Assembly (NCBI GenBank): GCA_028714495.1
Contig: JAQTMH010000001.1
Span: 309,036 to 343,867 of the forward strand
DNA length: 34,832 bases
Source of the DNA: Patescibacteria group bacterium
Lineage (GTDB): Bacteria > Patescibacteriota > Patescibacteriia > JAHIZJ01
Direction: 5' to 3'
In this document: positions 2,291 through 22,448 of the stretch, in pieces
How positions within the stretch are numbered: the stretch's first letter is position 1
How the letters are laid out: the number at the start of each line of letters is the position of its first letter
Notes under the pieces: model-generated
What the model was told of the DNA's origin: nothing
The model's input: the letters and a program-made list of their open reading frames with translations, nothing else
Databases searched by the model: none
Translations under genes and position numbers: made by a program

Positions 2291-2319
2291 TTGACAATAA
2301 TCAAAATATTTGTTATTAT
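2291..2319 (+). promoter_or_regulatory. Sigma70-like promoter for the giant surface protein gene
   Basis: TTGACA 2291-2296, 17-nt spacer, TATTAT 2314-2319. Confidence 0.65.
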
Positions 2320-2422
2320 AAGAGTGGAAATTTATATTGTTTTAGTCTTTTCTAGGCTAATTTTAGCCAATTTTTGTGGTTTTATTCAATTTTTCAATAT
2401 TTCTGATGATTCTTTTTCAGAA

Positions 2423-5400
2423 ATGAAAACAAAAAGGAAGAGACGAGAGGTAAAAAAATTATTTTTGTTGAAAATAACGAGTAAATTCGTCAGGGTTTTT
2501 GCTTGGCCTAAGATCCTCAGCCGATATTCAGTACGGAATATCTTTTCTCCCCATTTCAATCAAAAAAGCCGAAAGAGACAATCCATTATTGCCACAATCG
2601 GCGTATTTTTATTTCTGCTGCTCACTGTGGGCGCTTTTTTAGGCTGGAGGATTTTCTGGGCTTCGGCAACGAGCGACACTATAACATTTAATACTCAGGC
2701 TATCTGGGAAGCGGGCGAATATTATCCCGGCACCATCGATACAAAATCAACGGCTGATAGCATGAAAATCCAATCCGGCTATGTTGGCGACTGGGACAAG
2801 GGTACGCCGGGTTTCTATACTGACCTTGCTGGTTATGATTATTGGAGCTATGATGGCGCATCCTATGGCGCAGATTTTACAACTGATGGAACTTACATTT
2901 ATTTAATTGTCGGCAATCGCCGACCCTATCTCATCCGTTATAATCCCGAAACGAACAGTTGGAAACAACTGGCGAGCGCGCCGACAACTTTTTATTATGG
3001 CGGATCCATAACTTATGACGCTTCGACTAAGTCAATCTTCGCTATCGACGGCGGCGAGCAGAATGAAACAGGAAATGCCACAAAGCACATGTACCAGTAC
3101 GACCTGGCTACTGACGCTTGGAGTCGGGTAACGGACGCGCCGGATCCCTGGGGTCTGGGTTCATCAATCGCGGCCGATGGGGCTGGGACAATCTACGCGG
3201 TCCGCGGCCGAAGCACTGATACACTCTGGTCTTATGACATTGCCAGCGACGAGTGGGATGTAACGCTGCCCGCTCTACCCACTCCTTATTATGTCTATAC
3301 TACGAACGGCCAGCCGCTCGAATTTGTCAACGAGCCGTACTCCGATGTTAATGGCGATCATTGCGCCAGTGGTTGTCTTTTTACGCTCTACGGCAACAAT
3401 AATCGGCAGTTTTTTCGCTACGATATCGCCGAGCGGCAGTGGTACTATAATTCTCCCACTGATCTGACAATTCCTTCGGCCCTCGGCGGCGTCGGTTACG
3501 GTTCGTCATTTGCCTATGACTCAACCAACGGCAATCTCTACCTCCTCCACGGCAATCAAACCGATGATTTTTCAAAATATGATGTTTCAGCCTCTGATTG
3601 GGACGACGCGGCGGCCGATACGCCAGACGCGCCCGGCGTCGTCTATAATGGTGGAGCGCTCGTGTATCTCGATGGGTATATTTACGCGTTTAAGGGTTAC
3701 GGCGTGCCAGACATCTGGCGATTTAAAGTTGACGATCCAGGCGGCAATGCCTGGGAATCGATTTCCACTCCGCTCGCTGTTGGAAACGATGAAAATGGGA
3801 TGATGACATTCGTGCCGAATGGCTCCTATTGTGCTGACGCTACCGGTTGTTTGTTTGTTTTACGCGGGGCTAACATCAATCCCGCCTCCGCGGATACCTT
3901 CTGGCGCTACAATATCGGTGCGCGCACCTGGTCGACGCTTTCCGATACGAATACCACAACCTCGCAAAACCCGACTTCATACTTCCGACAAGGAACAAGT
4001 ACCTGTTGGAATGGCGCCGACTATATTTACGCCCTGAAGGCGAACAATGTCACCAACGGCTCAAACACGGAATTCTATCGTTATACGATTTCCACCGATA
4101 CCTGGTCGAATTCGGTCAACGGTCTACCCCTGAATCACAGCGGCCCGGGCGATTATCCGAGCGGAAACCGCACCGCTCACTATGGAGCATCCCTTGCTTG
4201 TCTCGGGGCCAATGTTTATGCGATTAAAGGCGGGTCAGACGCCAACGGCTCGAATCATTTCTTTAAGTTCGATGGTACGAACTGGAGTTCATTGACGGTC
4301 GTACCGCAACGGACTTACGTCGGCGGCGCTCTCGTCTCGGTTCCAAACGGCGTTGATTGCGCTGACGCAACCGGCTGTGTCTTCGCGCTGATGGGCAATC
4401 AACGCGGAGATTTCTACCGTTATGATACGACCGCCGGAACCTGGACCAGCCGGGCTTCGTTACCAACCGCGACCAATTACACCGCCGCGCTTTCCTATGA
4501 TGCCAGTGGTCAGATTTACGCCACTTCGGGCGACTACGATACACGTATGTGGCGGTATGATATCACCACGAACACCTGGACTCGCGTGGCTGATCTACCC
4601 GCCCGGGTTGGCTACAATAATGCTTTGGCTTATGACGCGACAGCCGGCACAATGTATCTCCAAATGGGCATGTCAACAAACTCAATCTGGCGTTTCACAC
4701 CCTCAAACAACAATTATATCAGCTCGGCTACTTGGATCTCCGCCACCCAGGATCTAGACTATGTCAACGCCTGGGAGCAATTAACTGCCACCAATCCAAC
4801 GCCTGGTTCATCAAGTATCAGTTTTGCTCTGCGTTCCAGCACGGATAAAGTAACCTGGTCTGACTGGGAAACGGTCGTGAATGCTGAAACGGGTGACACA
4901 ACCACCCAGAGTTTATCGTCAATCACCACTCCGGCCCGCCGCTATATCCAAATCAAGATTACTCTCACCTCTGATGGTACGAATACGCCGACCTTAAGTG
5001 ATCTGGCGGTTACTTACACAAAAGACGGTACCGCGCCGACCAATCCAACCATCTCAGGCTATTCGGATTCAACAGAAACCACAGGTCTGACTAGCGACAA
5101 CTCGTATTACTACACCAATCCGTACTTTAAACTGGAGGATGCGGCTGATGCTCATTCTGGGATCGCTGGCTACTATGTACGCTGGTCAGACGATGACGAA
5201 GACGATCCAGCGGCGAGCGAAGATTATTACCAGACCGGTGCAACCTATGTGGTAAATACCGAGTTGACGCCGAATGGAACCTATTATCTGCTGGTCAAAA
5301 CTAAGGATAACGCTGGAAATGTTTCTAGTTCGTCAACTAGTTTTACTTACATTTATTCCGGCATTCTTATTACAGACGAAACTCGCCAAACCTGGACCGC

Positions 5401-8400
5401 TGAGGCGGATTTTGAAGCAGCCGGGACTGACGAGAGCAATATCAATACTGAGGCCGGGACTGGAACAGCCATGACGCTCGATAGTGTATCACCCGGCACC
5501 TGGATGGATTTACCGGCGACCTATGGGGTTAGTCCGGATAATCTTACCGCCTACCGCGATACTTCAATGACATATGACGGAGATAATACCATCTACGTTC
5601 TTCGCGCTGAGAATAGCAAGAAATTCTATTCATATACGATCTCGAGTAAAACTTGGACGAACCTCGCCGATATCACGAGCACAAATGTTGCCTGGTACGG
5701 TGCGGTTATTGAGTACGTCAGCGGCGCCGCCAATTGTCGTGATAACGAGAGTGATGTGACTGGCACGACTAAGTGCGTTTATGCTTTGCCTGGTTCGAGT
5801 GTCAACCCGCCCGTCGGCGATACCTCGAAAGAATTCCTCCGCTATGATATTGATGGCACAGACGCGAATTCCTGGACTAGCCGGGCGGCTATTTCCGGCG
5901 TCCTTTTATACGGCGCTGACCTCGTCTGGGCTGGTGGCGATTATTTGTATGCTGAGCGTGGATATAATCAGTCAAATTTCTACCGGTACAGCATCTCCAC
6001 CAATACCTGGGCTGATCGCGCCACTCCGGATAATGCTTTTTACTATGGGTCGACTCTCGCCTATGTGCCAAACGGAACCTACTGCGGTGACAGCCAGGGC
6101 TGCATTTTTGCCACGCGCGGCGCCGGTTCGGATCACTTCTGGCGCTACGATATTAACGCCAACTCGTGGAGCTATCTGACCGCGCCGCCGAATGCTTCAA
6201 GTTCAAAAGGTAATTACGGCGCCACCTCGCTTTATTACGACGGATATATTTATTTATCCGGCGGCTATGCCGCAACCGATTTCATGAAGTATGACATTCT
6301 AACTGATACCTGGACGTTGCTCGCCGACTTACCCGCCACACACTATTTTGGTTCGACCAATGGTCTGATTTACCACGGCGATACCGATACAATATACATG
6401 TTGCGCGGCTACAACGAATACAGTTTCTTTAGTTACGATGTCGTGAACGACAAATGGCGCAATCCGACCTTGCCGCACGGCATGAGCTCAAATGGTTTCA
6501 GCTACGGCGGCCTGACCTATGACGACAGTGATACGCTCTATGTCGCGCGCGGCGGAAACAATAACGATTTCTATAAATACACCATCTCAACCCAGATCTG
6601 GACCCGACTGGCTGATGTGCCAATGCGAATGTATTACACCTCTGACCTTATTTATGTAGACGGCTATGTTTATGCCCTTACTGGGATACCACCCTATGCT
6701 GAAGGCGTAACTAAATTTTACCGTTACGATCCGACGACCGATCTCTGGACCAGGCTCGATGATACCCCAAGCACAGTTGGCTATGGCACAAAGCTGATCT
6801 ACGACGGCGACCACACGATCTACACGGCGAGAGGCGCTGGCACAGCCACCTATTATTCTTATGACCTAGATGACCCAGGCTGGTCGACCCAGGCCTCGGC
6901 CGTTCCCGGAACGCTCACCAACGGCGCCTGCGCGGTCATGACCGAGATTAGTGACGTGAAATACATATATCAGATCCGGTCATCGAATACATTAGATGTC
7001 TATCGTTGCACGCTCGACACGGAAGCTGGCACCTGCACCTGGACCGCCCAAGGCCAGCCCGGTGATCCAACCGACGCTCCAGCCGGAGCCGGTAGTATTA
7101 ACCTATATTACGGCGCTGCTTGCACGGTCAGTGGTGGTAATATTTTCGTTCCGCGCGGCAATACAAACAATCTCGACTTTCTTGTTTATAATATTTCTGG
7201 TGATTCATGGGCAAGTCGTTCATTAAACAGCTTTTACTACGACGGCCGACTGGTGACTGGACCGGGAGATATTTTATACGGCTTCCGTGGCTATAATACT
7301 TCGTCGTTAGAACGATATGTTCAGCAAACGGATACAACCAGCTTTGAGCGCGTTGGCACCTGGACCTCGCAGATTATTGATAGCGGCACAATCTATGATT
7401 TCGGCGGACTGACGGCGAATGATACCGCACCGGATAATACCGCCTTAAAATACGAAACGCGCACTTGCTCAGATGCGGGCTGCGCTGATGATGTCGACGA
7501 TGAACATTGGTCTGACTGGGATGAGGTGTCAAATGAAAAAACTGTCGGATCGACCGACTACTATACCCTTGATTCAACGCCCGCTCAATACGTCCAGTTG
7601 AAAATAACCTTTACTTCTGATCGAATCTACACGCCGACCGTTAACGATATTACCTTGAGCTATTACGCAGATGGTACGGCGCCGGATAATCCCGATACCT
7701 TGACCGCGAAATCGCAGGCTTCGGGTGGCGTGGATATCGAAAGCGGCGATTGGAACAATTACACAACTCCATATTTTTCCTGGTCCGGCGCGGCTGATAA
7801 TACTGGCGGTATTGGTATCCAAGGCTATTGTGTTTACTTCGGCACTAATTCTGAAGCTGATCCGGCGGATGGTTGCACTCCTCAAACAGCGGCCACCTAC
7901 ACGTCGTCTAGCCTCTCAACTGGGGAGACTTACTATCTCCGGATAAAGACAAAAGACTATCTGGGCAATACTTCGGCTGAAACTTGGGCTCCATTTACAT
8001 ATAGTCTGGATAGTGTCGCGCCCTCTCGCCCGACAAATTTGGCCTCCAGTCCGGCCGTTCCATCGGCCGCCAACAGTTTTAATATTTTCTGGACAGCCGG
8101 TTCTGACTCAGGCGGTTCACCCAGTTTTCAGCATTGTTACAAACGCTATTTCAGCGATGAAATTCAGGATGAAAGTGACACCTGTATTCCAAGCACCGAA
8201 ACCTCGCTCCTCGGCATTGAGGCGCTGGTTGAGGGGGTGAACTATTTCAAAATCAGAACACTTGACGAAGCCGGCAACTATTCCAATGGCGGTGAGTATG
8301 AATCAGTTGCCTATCGCTGGGCTCAAACACCTCCGAGCCTGCCCTTGAATGTTGAGCACGGGGAGGTTGAGGGTGATGACTATTCACATACCTTTGCCTG

Positions 8401-11128
8401 GAGTGAACCGGCTGAACACGCTTTTGACATCGGCGCTTACTGCTATCAAATTAACGAAATTCCAACCGCCAGTTATTGTAACAATAGCACCTATGGACGT
8501 TGGACGACCACGGTCGAAACAGCTGGTAAGTTTCTCGCGGCCTTTCGTACGCCTAACACTCAACCCGGTACTAACACATTTTATGTCGTTGCTAAAGATG
8601 AGGCCGGCTTGGTTGACTGGGACACCGAATCTTTTGACTGTGCTAATGGCCTTGGCTGTATTGAGTTTGAATCGAACACAATTTCGCCGAACGCCCCCCA
8701 GAGCTTTTCCCTGGTTGACGCTTCGAACCGTGACGCCCAAAGCTACCGCTTAACCTTGGGCTGGAAAAAGCCGGCTGACAACCCCGGTTCGGTTCTTTAT
8801 AAATACAATGTCTACCGTTCGACCGACGGCGTTGAATATACCCTGCGCGAAAGCCTGCTTCACGTCGACGGGCAGGATGAATACGCTTATACCGACGTCA
8901 GCCTGACCAGTACCGTCACTTACTACTACAAAGTAACGGCTTCGGATCTAGCCGGCGCCGAATCAGACTATACGTCAGCTATTTCTATGAAACCAGAGGG
9001 CAAATACACCATTCCTCCTGATCTAGTGGGCGCTCCATCAATTCAACCGCGCATTCGTTCAGCTCTGATTGAATGGCTGACTGAACCATCAACTCACCCG
9101 GCTAGCTCCTTCGTTCGCTACGGCTTGACTGAAGAATACGAATTGGGCGAACAGGGATCGTCAGATTTGGTTTCAAGCCACTCAGTTACGCTTATTGATT
9201 TAGAGCCGGCGACTACCTATCATTTCGAGCTAAAATGGCTGGATCGTGACGGTAATATCGGCTCCTCGCCTGACTATGAATTTACCACCAACGACGCGCC
9301 GTCAGCTCCAATCAATTTGACCGTGGACCCAGCTTCAAACACGGTAAACCGCTACACTTTTGATTGGGACCCGCCGGCCGACGAGGGCGTGACGATCAGC
9401 GGGTATTTCTATAGCGTAAACAATGTTCCAACCGTAGATAATGTAAAATTCGTTACTGATTCCCAGGTCGGACCGATCGCCGCGGCGACTCAACAGGGGG
9501 TAAATACTTTATACGTGGTGGCTGTTGATGATGCTGGCAACGTTAATTACGCTAATTATATTTCAGTTGAATTCGAAGTTCATACCGCCGCTCCAGGCGA
9601 ACCTCAAAATGTTACTATTATTGATTCCTCTGATCGAAACGCTGAACGCTATAATATCACCCTGACCTGGGACCCGCCAGCAACAGCCAGCACTGAAGAC
9701 GAAAACGAGATTTATTACTCCATCTACCGCTCGGAAGACGGCGGCATTTCATTTTCAAATATCGCCCGACTGACTTCAACCGGCTATCTTGACACTGGCT
9801 TAAATAATACCGTCAAGTATTATTATAAAATCACCGCCTCAGATAAGGCCGGGGCTTCATCAGAGTCTACTGATCCGGTGGCTGAGATTCCCGAGGGGCG
9901 CTACACCGCGCCGCCGGCTATCACCGAGCTGCCCATTGCCCTGGCTGATTCTTACACGGCCGTAATCACTTGGCGTACTGAGCGTGAAGCCTCTTCATTC
10001 GTGGACTTTGGGATCACCAGCAAAGAATGGGCCGAAGAGCAGGGTACGGCCCAGCTGATAGAAGCGCACTCCGTCAAGATCACCGGCTTAAAACCCGAAA
10101 CAAAATATTATTACCAGGTAAAAAGTATAGATATTGATGAAAATGTCGCTTATTCCGAGGTATATTCCTTTGTCACTCTCGAAGCCCCGAGAGTTTCCGA
10201 AGTGGCAATCACCGACGTCAGGCTATTTGACGCAATCATATCCTGGAAAACCAATAAAGAAACGACAACCTCTCTTGATTACGGCACCACCACTAAATAC
10301 GGCACGACCTATACTGACGTTGGCGGATCATTTACCTTCACCCATACCATTAAATTGGAAAAGCTAACTGACGCCACGACTTACCATCTGCGGATGGCCG
10401 GTCAAGACTCCAACAACAATCCTGTGCAGTCCGATGATTATAGTTTTACCACCCTAACCTTCCCGAAAGTTTCCGACATCAGGTTCCAAAATAAAGCTGA
10501 GGGCGAAACCGAGGTCACCTGGAAAACCAATGTTCCCACCACCTCCAATGTTGAATACTATAATCCGGACATCCCTTCGAAGACTCAAGGCAATACGGCC
10601 CTGGTTACCGAGCACTCAGTTCTACTCTTTGGGCTGGAAGACGCCACCCTTTATTCAACCAAGGTTCGTGGAACTGATCAATTCGGCTATGAGGCTGTTT
10701 CAGACGTGCTTACTTTCACCACTCTCGAAGATACCACGCCGCCAATCATCTCTAATGTCCAGTCAGAGTCTAACACCGTAGGCGCGGGCGACGCTTCTAA
10801 GGTCCAAATTATTATCTCTTGGCGAACTAACGAGCCAACCACATCCAAGGTTGAGTATGGCGAGGGTCTCGGAGATACCGCCTATTCGGGCGAGACCGAT
10901 GAAAACGCTGAGTTGGTTTTTGAGCACCTGGTGGTCGTCTCGAATCTTTCACCGGCCCGGACCTATCATTTCCGCGTGGTTTCAAACGATAAGGCCGGCA
11001 ATGAATCAAAATCCGGCTCATATTCCGTTTTAACCTCGCGCAAGCGCGAATCCTTCCTCCAGTTAGTCGTCTCCCAACTTGAAACCACCTTTTCCTGGCT
11101 AGGCAATATGGGTAATATATTTAAATAG
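2423..11128 (+). CDS. Giant (~2,900 aa) membrane-anchored surface protein with Kelch-like beta-propeller repeats and fibronectin type III domains
   Basis: Basic N-terminus plus TM segment IIATIGVFLFLLLTVGAFLGWRIFW; many repeats of the type 'xYRYDxxTxxWxxLAxxP...Y.G..L.Y'; C-terminal Fn3-like units (EATVTWKTNxPTTSxVEYG...). Start at ATG 2423 preferred because the longer ORF start overlaps the promoter -35; no clear SD, so start is uncertain. Confidence 0.85.
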   Translation: MKTKRKRREVKKLFLLKITSKFVRVFAWPKILSRYSVRNIFSPHFNQKSRKRQSIIATIGVFLFLLLTVGAFLGWRIFWASATSDTITFNTQAIWEAGEYYPGTIDTKSTADSMKIQSGYVGDWDKGTPGFYTDLAGYDYWSYDGASYGADFTTDGTYIYLIVGNRRPYLIRYNPETNSWKQLASAPTTFYYGGSITYDASTKSIFAIDGGEQNETGNATKHMYQYDLATDAWSRVTDAPDPWGLGSSIAADGAGTIYAVRGRSTDTLWSYDIASDEWDVTLPALPTPYYVYTTNGQPLEFVNEPYSDVNGDHCASGCLFTLYGNNNRQFFRYDIAERQWYYNSPTDLTIPSALGGVGYGSSFAYDSTNGNLYLLHGNQTDDFSKYDVSASDWDDAAADTPDAPGVVYNGGALVYLDGYIYAFKGYGVPDIWRFKVDDPGGNAWESISTPLAVGNDENGMMTFVPNGSYCADATGCLFVLRGANINPASADTFWRYNIGARTWSTLSDTNTTTSQNPTSYFRQGTSTCWNGADYIYALKANNVTNGSNTEFYRYTISTDTWSNSVNGLPLNHSGPGDYPSGNRTAHYGASLACLGANVYAIKGGSDANGSNHFFKFDGTNWSSLTVVPQRTYVGGALVSVPNGVDCADATGCVFALMGNQRGDFYRYDTTAGTWTSRASLPTATNYTAALSYDASGQIYATSGDYDTRMWRYDITTNTWTRVADLPARVGYNNALAYDATAGTMYLQMGMSTNSIWRFTPSNNNYISSATWISATQDLDYVNAWEQLTATNPTPGSSSISFALRSSTDKVTWSDWETVVNAETGDTTTQSLSSITTPARRYIQIKITLTSDGTNTPTLSDLAVTYTKDGTAPTNPTISGYSDSTETTGLTSDNSYYYTNPYFKLEDAADAHSGIAGYYVRWSDDDEDDPAASEDYYQTGATYVVNTELTPNGTYYLLVKTKDNAGNVSSSSTSFTYIYSGILITDETRQTWTAEADFEAAGTDESNINTEAGTGTAMTLDSVSPGTWMDLPATYGVSPDNLTAYRDTSMTYDGDNTIYVLRAENSKKFYSYTISSKTWTNLADITSTNVAWYGAVIEYVSGAANCRDNESDVTGTTKCVYALPGSSVNPPVGDTSKEFLRYDIDGTDANSWTSRAAISGVLLYGADLVWAGGDYLYAERGYNQSNFYRYSISTNTWADRATPDNAFYYGSTLAYVPNGTYCGDSQGCIFATRGAGSDHFWRYDINANSWSYLTAPPNASSSKGNYGATSLYYDGYIYLSGGYAATDFMKYDILTDTWTLLADLPATHYFGSTNGLIYHGDTDTIYMLRGYNEYSFFSYDVVNDKWRNPTLPHGMSSNGFSYGGLTYDDSDTLYVARGGNNNDFYKYTISTQIWTRLADVPMRMYYTSDLIYVDGYVYALTGIPPYAEGVTKFYRYDPTTDLWTRLDDTPSTVGYGTKLIYDGDHTIYTARGAGTATYYSYDLDDPGWSTQASAVPGTLTNGACAVMTEISDVKYIYQIRSSNTLDVYRCTLDTEAGTCTWTAQGQPGDPTDAPAGAGSINLYYGAACTVSGGNIFVPRGNTNNLDFLVYNISGDSWASRSLNSFYYDGRLVTGPGDILYGFRGYNTSSLERYVQQTDTTSFERVGTWTSQIIDSGTIYDFGGLTANDTAPDNTALKYETRTCSDAGCADDVDDEHWSDWDEVSNEKTVGSTDYYTLDSTPAQYVQLKITFTSDRIYTPTVNDITLSYYADGTAPDNPDTLTAKSQASGGVDIESGDWNNYTTPYFSWSGAADNTGGIGIQGYCVYFGTNSEADPADGCTPQTAATYTSSSLSTGETYYLRIKTKDYLGNTSAETWAPFTYSLDSVAPSRPTNLASSPAVPSAANSFNIFWTAGSDSGGSPSFQHCYKRYFSDEIQDESDTCIPSTETSLLGIEALVEGVNYFKIRTLDEAGNYSNGGEYESVAYRWAQTPPSLPLNVEHGEVEGDDYSHTFAWSEPAEHAFDIGAYCYQINEIPTASYCNNSTYGRWTTTVETAGKFLAAFRTPNTQPGTNTFYVVAKDEAGLVDWDTESFDCANGLGCIEFESNTISPNAPQSFSLVDASNRDAQSYRLTLGWKKPADNPGSVLYKYNVYRSTDGVEYTLRESLLHVDGQDEYAYTDVSLTSTVTYYYKVTASDLAGAESDYTSAISMKPEGKYTIPPDLVGAPSIQPRIRSALIEWLTEPSTHPASSFVRYGLTEEYELGEQGSSDLVSSHSVTLIDLEPATTYHFELKWLDRDGNIGSSPDYEFTTNDAPSAPINLTVDPASNTVNRYTFDWDPPADEGVTISGYFYSVNNVPTVDNVKFVTDSQVGPIAAATQQGVNTLYVVAVDDAGNVNYANYISVEFEVHTAAPGEPQNVTIIDSSDRNAERYNITLTWDPPATASTEDENEIYYSIYRSEDGGISFSNIARLTSTGYLDTGLNNTVKYYYKITASDKAGASSESTDPVAEIPEGRYTAPPAITELPIALADSYTAVITWRTEREASSFVDFGITSKEWAEEQGTAQLIEAHSVKITGLKPETKYYYQVKSIDIDENVAYSEVYSFVTLEAPRVSEVAITDVRLFDAIISWKTNKETTTSLDYGTTTKYGTTYTDVGGSFTFTHTIKLEKLTDATTYHLRMAGQDSNNNPVQSDDYSFTTLTFPKVSDIRFQNKAEGETEVTWKTNVPTTSNVEYYNPDIPSKTQGNTALVTEHSVLLFGLEDATLYSTKVRGTDQFGYEAVSDVLTFTTLEDTTPPIISNVQSESNTVGAGDASKVQIIISWRTNEPTTSKVEYGEGLGDTAYSGETDENAELVFEHLVVVSNLSPARTYHFRVVSNDKAGNESKSGSYSVLTSRKRESFLQLVVSQLETTFSWLGNMGNIFK

Positions 11129-18570: not shown

Positions 18571-21219
18571 ATGCCCCAGGAACTCCCAAAAGCCTACGAA
18601 CCAAAAGAAGTTGAAAAAGCGATTTACCTGAAATGGGGAAAATCCGGCTTTTTTAATCCTGACAAATTGCCGGGCAAGCGCTCGAAAAACTTTTCCATCA
18701 GCCTGCCGCCGCCCAATGCCACAGGTATTCTCCATATCGGCCACGCCGTGATGCTGGCGATACAGGATTTGCTGATCCGGTTCGAACGGATGCGCGGGAA
18801 AAAGACGCTTTGGCTGCCTGGCACTGATCACGCGGCCATTGCCACGCAAAATGTGGTGGAGCAGAGTTTAAAAGCCGAGGGTAAGACCAAAAACGATTTA
18901 GGCCGTGAGAAATTCCTTGAGCGTATCAATGAATATGTCGCTTCCAAACGAAATTCGATCCGCGAACAAGTTGTTCGCCTAGGCTCGAGCTGCGATTGGT
19001 CCAGGGAGCGCTTCACGCTTGATGCCGGTTTATCAAACGCCGTGGTTACCGCTTTTAAAACCCTTTATGATGACGGTTTAATTTACCGGGGTGACCGCAT
19101 AGTAAATTGGTGCCCCCGCTGCCAATCCACCCTGGCTGATGACGAGGTGGAGTATATCGAGAAAAAGACGCCTTTTTTCTATTTCAAATACGGCCCAGTA
19201 GTGATCGGCACAGCCCGGCCAGAAACCAAGTTCGGAGACAAGGTTATTATTGTCCACCCAGACGATAAGCGCTATCAGAACATAGTCGGAAAAGACTTCG
19301 AGGTTGAGTGGATCCTGGGAAAAATTAAAGCCCGGGTAATCGCTGACCCGGCCGCCGATCCGGCCATGGGAAGCGGCGCCATGACCATTACGCCAGGACA
19401 CAGCTTTGTTGATTTTGAACTGGCTAAAAAACATAATATTGAAATTGAAAAAATTATTGACGAGCGGGGCTGCTTAACCGAAGCGGCTGGCGAAATGAAG
19501 GGCTGGCCAGTCCGTGAGGCACGAAAGAGGGTAGTGGAAATTCTCCGAGCCAAAGGCCTGATCGAAAAAGTTGACGAAAATTATATTCATAATCTCTCTG
19601 TTTGTTATCGCTGCAACACTCCGGTTGAGCCGCTGGTTTCCAAGCAGTGGTTCTTGGCCGTGGATCAGCCGACTAAACAGCTAAATGGAAAAACTCTAAA
19701 AACACGGGCGCTCGAGGTTATTGATAATAAGGAAATCGAATTCGTGCCTGAACGCTTTGGCAAAATTTACCTGCACTGGATGACCAATTTGCATGACTGG
19801 TGCATTTCGCGGCAGATTTGGTACGGCCATAGAATACCGGTCTGGCACCGAGGGAAAGAAATCGTGGTGAGCGGATCTAATCCAAAAGGCGAGGGCTGGT
19901 CTCAAGAAATCGACACTCTCGACACCTGGTTTTCTTCCTCCTTGTGGACTTTTTCCACGCTCGGCTGGCCAATAACAAAAGAGATTGGTTTTGATGCGTC
20001 ATTGGTTGATTTGGTGAAATCCGGAAAAAAGACAAAAACTTTTCGTTTGCGTGATCACGATCTTTCGGCCGGAGAAACGTGTTTCACGCACGACAGCAAA
20101 ACGAAAAAAAAGTTCGGGTACTTACATATTGTTCGCGCCACCAAAATACGGTTTGACGAGATTGAGCTTCACGCGGTTGGCCACGAACCATACAAAAGTC
20201 GCGCCGAACTGAACACGACATTTCAAAAATATTACCCGGACATTGCGATCACGTCCGACACGCCGGTGTGGCTGTACGAGTTTGTCTATCAAAAAAAATC
20301 GGATTTAGAACTATTTCATCCCACCTCAGTCATGGAAACCGCCTACGATATTATTTTCTTCTGGGTGGCGCGGATGATTATGATGTCCACTTACCTGGTT
20401 AAGGAGATACCCTTCAAAACCGTTTATTTTCATGGATTAGTCCGTGATAAAAAAGGTCGGAAGATGTCCAAATCTCTTGGCAACGGTATTGACCCATTAG
20501 AAATGGCTGATAAATACGGGGCAGACGCGGTCAGGTTAAGTTTAATCATTGGCACCTCGCCGGGTAACGACCAAAAATTAGACGAACAGAAAATCGCCGG
20601 CTACAGAAACTATGTTAATAAGGTTTGGAATATCGGCCGCTTCTTGGCAATGCAGACTAAGGGGAAAAAACTTAATCAGCCGAAAATTAAATCATTGGCT
20701 GATAAATGGATCATTAGCCAGCTTCAATATTTTTCACAAGTAATCACCACAATTGGGCTTGAGCGTTATACTTTTTCTCCTGTTGGTGAATCAGTTTACG
20801 AATTTACTTGGCATTTTTTCGCTGACTGGTATCTCGAAATCGTAAAAGTTGAGGGTAATGTCGCGCTGGCCAAACATATCTTTGGCATCTTGCTTAAGCT
20901 GCTCCACCCCTATATGCCGTTTGTCACTGAACACCTCTGGTCAATCCTTAAATATGATGAGGGATTATTGATGATCGCTCCGTGGCCCGATTCTGGAAAA
21001 GACTTTCTTGGCTGGAAAGATGACAAAAAAACCCGTGAGGATATTGAAATGGAGTTTAGTGAATTAATGAAGGCGGTAATTGACTTCCGCCGCCAGCGCA
21101 AAGAAGCTGGCACTCCAGCTGGTCAACCATGTGAAGTAAAACTTGACGCAAAAAGCCCACTGTGGCAAGATCAAGCGATAATTGAAAAGCTGGCTCGTGT
21201 TAAATTGGTAAAAGCCTAA
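18571..21219 (+). CDS. valS: Valyl-tRNA synthetase with inserted ASCH-like domain
   Basis: PPPNATGILHIGHA, KWGKSGFF, WCPRCQSTLADDEVEY, HDWCISRQIWYGHRIPVW, KMSKSLGNGIDP; extra ~105 aa between FSTLGWP and DLELFHPTSVMETAYDIIFFW. Confidence 0.96.
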   Translation: MPQELPKAYEPKEVEKAIYLKWGKSGFFNPDKLPGKRSKNFSISLPPPNATGILHIGHAVMLAIQDLLIRFERMRGKKTLWLPGTDHAAIATQNVVEQSLKAEGKTKNDLGREKFLERINEYVASKRNSIREQVVRLGSSCDWSRERFTLDAGLSNAVVTAFKTLYDDGLIYRGDRIVNWCPRCQSTLADDEVEYIEKKTPFFYFKYGPVVIGTARPETKFGDKVIIVHPDDKRYQNIVGKDFEVEWILGKIKARVIADPAADPAMGSGAMTITPGHSFVDFELAKKHNIEIEKIIDERGCLTEAAGEMKGWPVREARKRVVEILRAKGLIEKVDENYIHNLSVCYRCNTPVEPLVSKQWFLAVDQPTKQLNGKTLKTRALEVIDNKEIEFVPERFGKIYLHWMTNLHDWCISRQIWYGHRIPVWHRGKEIVVSGSNPKGEGWSQEIDTLDTWFSSSLWTFSTLGWPITKEIGFDASLVDLVKSGKKTKTFRLRDHDLSAGETCFTHDSKTKKKFGYLHIVRATKIRFDEIELHAVGHEPYKSRAELNTTFQKYYPDIAITSDTPVWLYEFVYQKKSDLELFHPTSVMETAYDIIFFWVARMIMMSTYLVKEIPFKTVYFHGLVRDKKGRKMSKSLGNGIDPLEMADKYGADAVRLSLIIGTSPGNDQKLDEQKIAGYRNYVNKVWNIGRFLAMQTKGKKLNQPKIKSLADKWIISQLQYFSQVITTIGLERYTFSPVGESVYEFTWHFFADWYLEIVKVEGNVALAKHIFGILLKLLHPYMPFVTEHLWSILKYDEGLLMIAPWPDSGKDFLGWKDDKKTREDIEMEFSELMKAVIDFRRQRKEAGTPAGQPCEVKLDAKSPLWQDQAIIEKLARVKLVKA

Positions 21220-21230
21220 CCTTCAATTCT

Positions 21231-22448
21231 ATGCCTAGAAATCCCGAAACGAGCATCTACCGAGGAGATCCAAGCGAGGTTTTCGCCCGTGATTTTATTC
21301 GCCGAGCCCCAGAATTAGATCACTACGAGGAGGTTGCTTTTGAAAGAATGGTCGCTCCCTATTTCCACGATAAACCCCAACATACCCAACTCGGCCGAGA
21401 CTTTCCTCCAGGTGCGTATAAAAGGGGCGAGCTTGAATCAGACTATCAAGAAGTGCTGCGCCTCCGGGATCGTGACAAGAAAGACGATACCGAGCGCGGA
21501 CGAATCCTCGAAGCTTTTTTTGGTCAACAAGCCGCTAGGCTAGGCTGGTTTGGCGAGAATTGCCGGGCTGTCAGAACGACCGAGTATGATGACCGCAAAA
21601 ATGCCACTGATCTGGTCTTGGTTTTCAACACCGGTGAGGGTGAACCGCTTTATTTGGCAGTTGATGTCACCACAGCTGAAAATCCAGCCGCCCTCAATGA
21701 AAAACTCAGCCGCTTGGTTAGAGGCATTGATACGGGGAATCTAACTGATTTAAAATATTTTCATGACGAAACCGGCGGGAGCGACAAACAGCCCGCGCTG
21801 AGACAGCTTCACGGCTTGCCGCGGGTAGTTATTGGTCTGACCCCAGAAGGAGTGGCGGCTTTATCAAAAGATTTGGCTCCTTATTTAGCTAGTGGTGGTA
21901 AAAACACAGCCGCGGAAAGGGCGCTTCGGTCACATGATATCCAGTCTCAGTTACTGAAAGACGTTAAACAACAGTTGGAAAACGAGATATTGCGCGCTGT
22001 TTTACGATATATCCAGCTGATTTCTGAAAAGGACGAAGCAACACTTTTTAATTACCGCTGTGAACAGCTTGGCCCGGATAATTATAATAATGTCCGCGCA
22101 CTATTAAACCTAGTGCACGACGGCGTCCTTCTGGAAAAAACTGACGAGAAATTGGTTAGAGAATTCGACAAGCTGCTTGAAGGCATTCCGCTTCTTGAAG
22201 AACTCGGGAAAAAATTTGGGATTACTTATCCCTTAACCGAGATCGTAGAAAAACATAGCCAAATTAGAAACCAGCTTAGTTTAGTTCTAGAAAAAAAAGA
22301 GGGCTCACGAGTCTCACCAGAGACTAGAGCCCGGGTACGAACGCTTGGTTTGTCACGGCCGGCTTGGCTGAGGACCGATCGGCTTGGAGCCGAACCTTTC
22401 AGAAAGTGGCTTAACCACCTCCCGCCCGCCCGGCCACAGGCCGCTTAA
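21231..22448 (+). CDS. Uncharacterised protein, possible PD-(D/E)XK nuclease-like fold
   Basis: 405-aa ORF directly downstream of valS; E-rich helix then NATDLVLVFN...EPLYLAVDVTT resembles a PD-(D/E)XK core with DxT in place of ExK. Function is a guess; the ORF itself is solid. Confidence 0.7.
   Translation: MPRNPETSIYRGDPSEVFARDFIRRAPELDHYEEVAFERMVAPYFHDKPQHTQLGRDFPPGAYKRGELESDYQEVLRLRDRDKKDDTERGRILEAFFGQQAARLGWFGENCRAVRTTEYDDRKNATDLVLVFNTGEGEPLYLAVDVTTAENPAALNEKLSRLVRGIDTGNLTDLKYFHDETGGSDKQPALRQLHGLPRVVIGLTPEGVAALSKDLAPYLASGGKNTAAERALRSHDIQSQLLKDVKQQLENEILRAVLRYIQLISEKDEATLFNYRCEQLGPDNYNNVRALLNLVHDGVLLEKTDEKLVREFDKLLEGIPLLEELGKKFGITYPLTEIVEKHSQIRNQLSLVLEKKEGSRVSPETRARVRTLGLSRPAWLRTDRLGAEPFRKWLNHLPPARPQAA

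Follow-up and report, generated by a model that had tools for sequence, protein, structure and literature searches.

Both ASCH domains and domains nested in aminoacyl-tRNA synthetases are known already, and the closest described counterpart of the domain considered here is E. coli YqfB, an N4-acetylcytidine amidohydrolase (PMC6972931; 9kyf, 9kyh) that is the nearest solved structure by fold and by profile. In YqfB, K21, T24 and R26 are essential, the E74A substitution causes a 1000-fold loss and H70A a loss of about 10-fold, and D27 and H70 are invariant among YqfB enzymes (PMC6972931). ZmASCH, which shares the fold of the ASCH superfamily (PF04266), is a ribonuclease (PMC5615036). With respect to nesting, the IleRS with a GNAT domain (NCBIfam NF040702, ileS_w_GNAT, known here by the name of the model alone) is likewise an editing class-I synthetase that carries a catalytic domain, but both the host and the domain differ from those described below. 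No description of an ASCH domain or a histidine phosphatase nested in ValRS, IleRS or LeuRS was found in the literature searched, most subscription papers being outside its scope, and this agrees with an earlier note on the same DNA, which knew of no such ValRS fusion.

The window analysed here is a stretch of 34,832 nucleotides from a Patescibacteria genome (assembly GCA_028714495.1, contig JAQTMH010000001.1), and the following features of its valS gene bear on the argument.

18571-21219, + strand: valS, valyl-tRNA synthetase, 882 aa (ORF, NCBIfam models)
18733-18744, + strand: HIGH signature, aa 55-58, intact (motif reading)
19210-19227, + strand: TARPET motif of the CP1 editing domain, aa 214-219, intact (motif reading)
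19837-19920, + strand: zinc-knuckle region from PVWHRG to DTWFSS, short and without Cys in the window ValRS
19921-19938, + strand: DTWFSS, aa 451-456, its Trp aligned with W456 of 1GAX; upstream side of the split
19972-20313, + strand: nested ASCH (YqfB-like) domain, aa 468-581, between GWP and FHPT (PF04266; fold match to 9kyf/9kyh; same site and length in six genomes)
20029-20046, + strand: K487, T490 and R492 (KTKTFR), aligned with YqfB K21, T24 and R26
20182-20187, + strand: H538-E539 of the GHE motif, E539 aligned with YqfB E74
20344-20364, + strand: YDIIFFW, aa 592-598, aligned with Y489-W495 of 1GAX; downstream side of the split
20461-20475, + strand: KMSKS signature, aa 631-635, intact (motif reading)

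Judged by its sequence, the 882-aa ORF is a valyl-tRNA synthetase: it scores 881 bits against the equivalog model NF004349 (cut-off 704), TIGR00422 agrees, and the HIGH, KMSKS and editing motifs are all present. Each of the two models aligns in two stretches, the first of which stops at aa 469/470. The source genome, that of a small bacterium of parasitic type (1.165 Mb, 98.9% complete), encodes only one full ValRS and, at this completeness, the insert-bearing protein must serve the cell. The insert comprises 114 residues (aa 468-581), preceded by GWP (aa 465-467) and followed by FHPT (aa 582); the earlier note had given it as 19972-20301, with the correct start but an end four codons early. 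Its placement between residues 472 and 473 of the T. thermophilus ValRS (1GAX) rests on sequence alignment, the single-sequence AlphaFold model of the whole ValRS having a pLDDT of 34. The point is flanked by W456 and D490/W495 of 1GAX, which we take to be valine-pocket residues, and most insert-free relatives have a loop of about 8-11 aa at the same place. The insert sits where the two halves of the ValRS catalytic domain join, in a loop that appears to be permissive.

Multiple lines of evidence from profile and structure comparisons bear on the identity of the insert. The Pfam ASCH model PF04266 (cut-off 21.2) matches the isolated insert with 34.4 bits (E 3.7e-8) and the whole ValRS with 29.6 bits. 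A three-row AlphaFold model of the insert (mean pLDDT 86, pTM 0.77) gives as its best matches, in a Foldseek search of the PDB, the structures of E. coli YqfB alone and with ac4C (9kyf, 9kyh), at E 4e-7 to 7e-7, with a TM by target length of 0.81-0.83 and an rmsd of 2.2-2.4 A; the matches that come next are other ASCH and ASCH-like proteins. ZmASCH is more distant than YqfB in this comparison (E 7e-5 vs 4e-7, TM by query 0.58 vs 0.71). A ten-row profile of the insert also retrieves YqfB first from the PDB, at E 0.0036; a phmmer search of the PDB with the single insert sequence gave no match. We conclude from sequence and model that the insert is an ASCH domain with a PUA-like fold, nearest to YqfB in fold and with a plausible pocket, and the model further suggests a complete, independently folding domain of the YqfB kind. 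The earlier note had proposed an ASCH/YqfB-like domain in the ValRS catalytic core, to be examined by a profile search and by an AlphaFold comparison with YqfB, and both, together with the residue alignment, bear it out. Its further impression of a different codon use does not hold, the GC3 of the insert being 0.52 against 0.51 and its codon score lying mid-range among equal-sized windows of the gene.

In the alignment with YqfB, K487, T490, R492 and E539 of the insert fall on K21, T24, R26 and E74, and Y555 falls on Y89. Thus, the assignment of K487, T490 and E539 to the catalytic Lys, Thr and Glu in the earlier note is correct and extends to the Arg, but its statement that the catalytic residues are preserved applies to these four positions and not to D27 and H70, which have no counterpart in any aligned insert or free relative. 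The insert is about 18% identical to YqfB and nested in ValRS, whereas YqfB is free, and its activity is a prediction. Given that the YqfB equivalog model NF003443 scores it at 22.6 bits, far below the cut-off of 93, and that D27 and H70 are missing, hydrolase activity should be taken as a lead only.

Beyond the window, we surveyed 381 genomes of the same class and 380 genomes of the phylum. Across the two samples, 24 genomes (18 of the 381 in the class sample) have an ASCH domain within the reading frame of a synthetase, at three sites in ValRS and one in LeuRS. Site (a), after GWP in ValRS, is occupied in six genomes (G000, G041, G296, G524, G666, G607), with inserts of identical length (114 aa) and a shared linker before FHPT, KSDL or a close variant. 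Site (b) is the zinc-knuckle loop of ValRS, with an ASCH domain in 13 genomes. Site (c), at the start of the ValRS editing domain, is represented by G441 (L183), with a different ASCH subtype that has K..E.R instead of K..T.R, and site (d) is the same place in LeuRS (G252, G353, G514, G567). A homologous fusion lies in a named Patescibacteria record, L112, which reads the same as G041, a genome of the window's own class. A scan of the whole genome collection proved too strict, yielding 2 loci and missing known cases. No phage relatives were found at E 1e-3.

Retention of the pocket residues differs among the sites. The Lys, Thr and Arg are kept in all six site (a) inserts and the Glu in five, G607 being without it; in LeuRS the corresponding counts are 4/4 and 3/4. 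The zinc-knuckle inserts all keep Thr and Arg (13/13), 10 of the 13 keep Lys, and none has the Glu. Among the free-standing single-gene relatives, Lys, Thr and Arg are present in 31/31 and Glu in 27/31. The copies therefore need not share one activity, and the loss of the Glu from all 13 zinc-knuckle inserts and from G607 implies that hydrolysis is not common to all of them unless the chemistry has changed. The survey of Patescibacteria ValRS proposed in the earlier note thus shows a recurrent fusion, found at several sites and also in LeuRS.

The nearest sequence relatives of the insert are the free-standing ASCH genes of the phylum, mostly of 110-130 aa, which have the K/T/R set and mostly the Glu in common with it but are separate genes. 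In the tree the inserts nested in synthetases make up a clade of their own (100/97), to which six free copies also belong. Three small free genes of 124-128 aa (L041, L042, L044) lie inside the zinc-knuckle insert clade and, from their sequences, look as if they had been released from ValRS or had been donors to it. Inspection by eye places some free ASCH genes next to MazG-like, NUDIX, Maf-like, RNase H or TrpRS genes. Other free-standing arrangements include a phosphatase-ASCH fusion (L070), an ASCH-RNase H fusion (L077) and, as judged by eye, an ASCH domain joined to an inorganic-pyrophosphatase-like and GrpB-like part (L072).

Furthermore, ASCH is not the only domain nested in these loops. 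Histidine phosphatases occupy the zinc-knuckle loop of ValRS in L021, L032, L158 and L175, and two of them are present in L207. In the same loop, L025 has an ASCH domain plus a phosphatase, and L171 has, in front of a histidine phosphatase, a serine-hydrolase-like domain with an AHSLG motif, whose resemblance to RBBP9 was judged by eye only; G607 combines a phosphatase in the zinc knuckle with ASCH at site (a). A survey of the phylum sample with PF00300 returned many phosphatase matches in frames of 860-1570 aa. We read 25 of these long frames, and 21 have IleRS or ValRS motifs, the other four being class-I synthetase-like as judged by eye. Many of the phosphatase-bearing IleRS contain two histidine phosphatases in tandem; in L163, L179, L180 and L188-L192 the pair lies between PLPIW and CWFESG.

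The distribution of site (a) inserts is patchy. The six inserts form one group (support 94/73; 91% of bootstrap trees, from few columns), and their hosts are scattered on the ValRS tree, which requires five changes when the five rows with ASCH alone are counted, at least four of them forced by well-supported branches. Within family f6, insert-free, site (a), zinc-knuckle and phosphatase-bearing ValRS are all present, and G607, with ASCH and phosphatase, stands next to G702, which has neither. In the two other members of the family no ASCH match was obtained, the ValRS of one being a contig-edge fragment and that of the other not being found. One old gain followed by many precise losses would fit the site (a) pattern, as would exchange between ValRS genes by recombination; at the protein level, a search for local gene conversion around the insert gave no clear local rise in identity. 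In the close pairs among G524, G666 and G607, the insert has pN of 0.20-0.29 and pS of 0.74-0.88 and the C-part of the host ValRS has pN of 0.19-0.23, and since synonymous sites are near saturation the pN/pS ratios are rough. The insert is clearly constrained, under purifying selection of nearly host-like strength.

With respect to function, we give about an even chance to the proposal that the insert is a working small-molecule module, an acyl-cytidine-type hydrolase or binding module, carried by ValRS. The predicted module would bind and hydrolyse a small acylated-cytidine-like compound, with Lys as the base, Thr as the nucleophile and Glu as the acid; ValRS might carry it as a passenger or work beside it, and selection would keep it as a working unit. 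The catalysis, the substrate and any coupling to aminoacylation are what we infer here. This reading is favoured because the pocket residues and selection are maintained at site (a), because the companions in the loops are hydrolases, and because YqfB-type proteins do not bind tRNA in EMSA (PMC9599836). The NUDIX, MazG-like or Maf-like genes next to some single-gene relatives, read by eye, also count in its favour. The EMSA result, together with the preserved K/T/R/E at site (a), the phosphatases in the same loop and the many insert-free sisters with an otherwise similar ValRS, also speaks against the main alternative, in which the domain is an RNA-binding appendage that touches the acceptor end of the tRNA and modulates how tightly the tRNA is bound or how it is passed on to the editing site. 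We consider such an appendage rather unlikely, although ASCH belongs to the PUA superfold, the hosts are tRNA enzymes, the inserts either split the catalytic domain or stand at the start of the editing domain, and the zinc-knuckle copies keep the fold and Thr/Arg but not the Glu.

Conceivably, the nested hydrolases could instead be guards that destroy nucleoside- or aminoacyl-nucleotide-type inhibitors close to their synthetase target, as self-protection in microbial competition. This would explain the patchiness, the presence so far in ValRS, IleRS and LeuRS only, and the several enzyme types per loop. No inhibitor of ValRS on which such a guard would act is known to us, and the Glu is missing from the zinc-knuckle copies; we regard a guard role as distinctly unlikely. 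By analogy only, nucleoside inhibitors of other synthetases offer parallels: albomycins vary in the C4 pyrimidine substituent, with an N4-carbamoyl group installed in synthesis and a warhead that inhibits SerRS (PMC6123416), and agrocin 84 gives rise to TM84, a LeuRS inhibitor countered by a self-immunity synthetase (PMC5059758). An insertion or spacer that has no function and that a permissive loop tolerates would suit the abundance of insert-free relatives and the changes of state within one family, but it is hard to reconcile with purifying selection, constant length and conserved pocket residues, and we deem it very improbable. That the segment is a normal connective peptide of ValRS, or an artefact of assembly or annotation, has a negligible probability and is refuted by its absence from the ValRS profiles and from 1GAX and by the ASCH fold match; moreover, five further genomes, each assembled independently, have homologous inserts of the same length at exactly this site, which means that neither chance nor assembly error is involved.

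Returning to the small-molecule module, TmcA and TmcAL are the known bacterial ac4C writers, and neither was found in the source genome, the TmcA search being one without a positive control; an internal source of ac4C is therefore doubtful. The insert is one case of a wider habit of the phylum, in which CP loops of ValRS, IleRS and LeuRS accommodate small hydrolase domains (ASCH, histidine phosphatase and one serine-hydrolase-like domain), with gain, loss or exchange of these domains at fixed sites. A bolder version, which we consider unlikely, is that hydrolases for detoxification or metabolite repair (ASCH, histidine phosphatase, serine hydrolase) dock interchangeably in these loops, as a mobile protective layer that is built into the synthetases and passes from genome to genome at set positions. 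Few enzymes are as conserved as synthetases, and the finding of the same small hydrolases nested time and again in several of them, at fixed sites and with a patchy spread, suggests that one of the largest uncultured bacterial groups has a so far unrecognised function connected with translation or with nucleotide housekeeping.

Elsewhere in the window, a 405-aa ORF (21231-22448, + strand) with no Pfam match lies directly behind valS, and a 2945-aa protein with Kelch repeats and fibronectin-type domains (2291-11128, + strand) is probably a giant surface protein.
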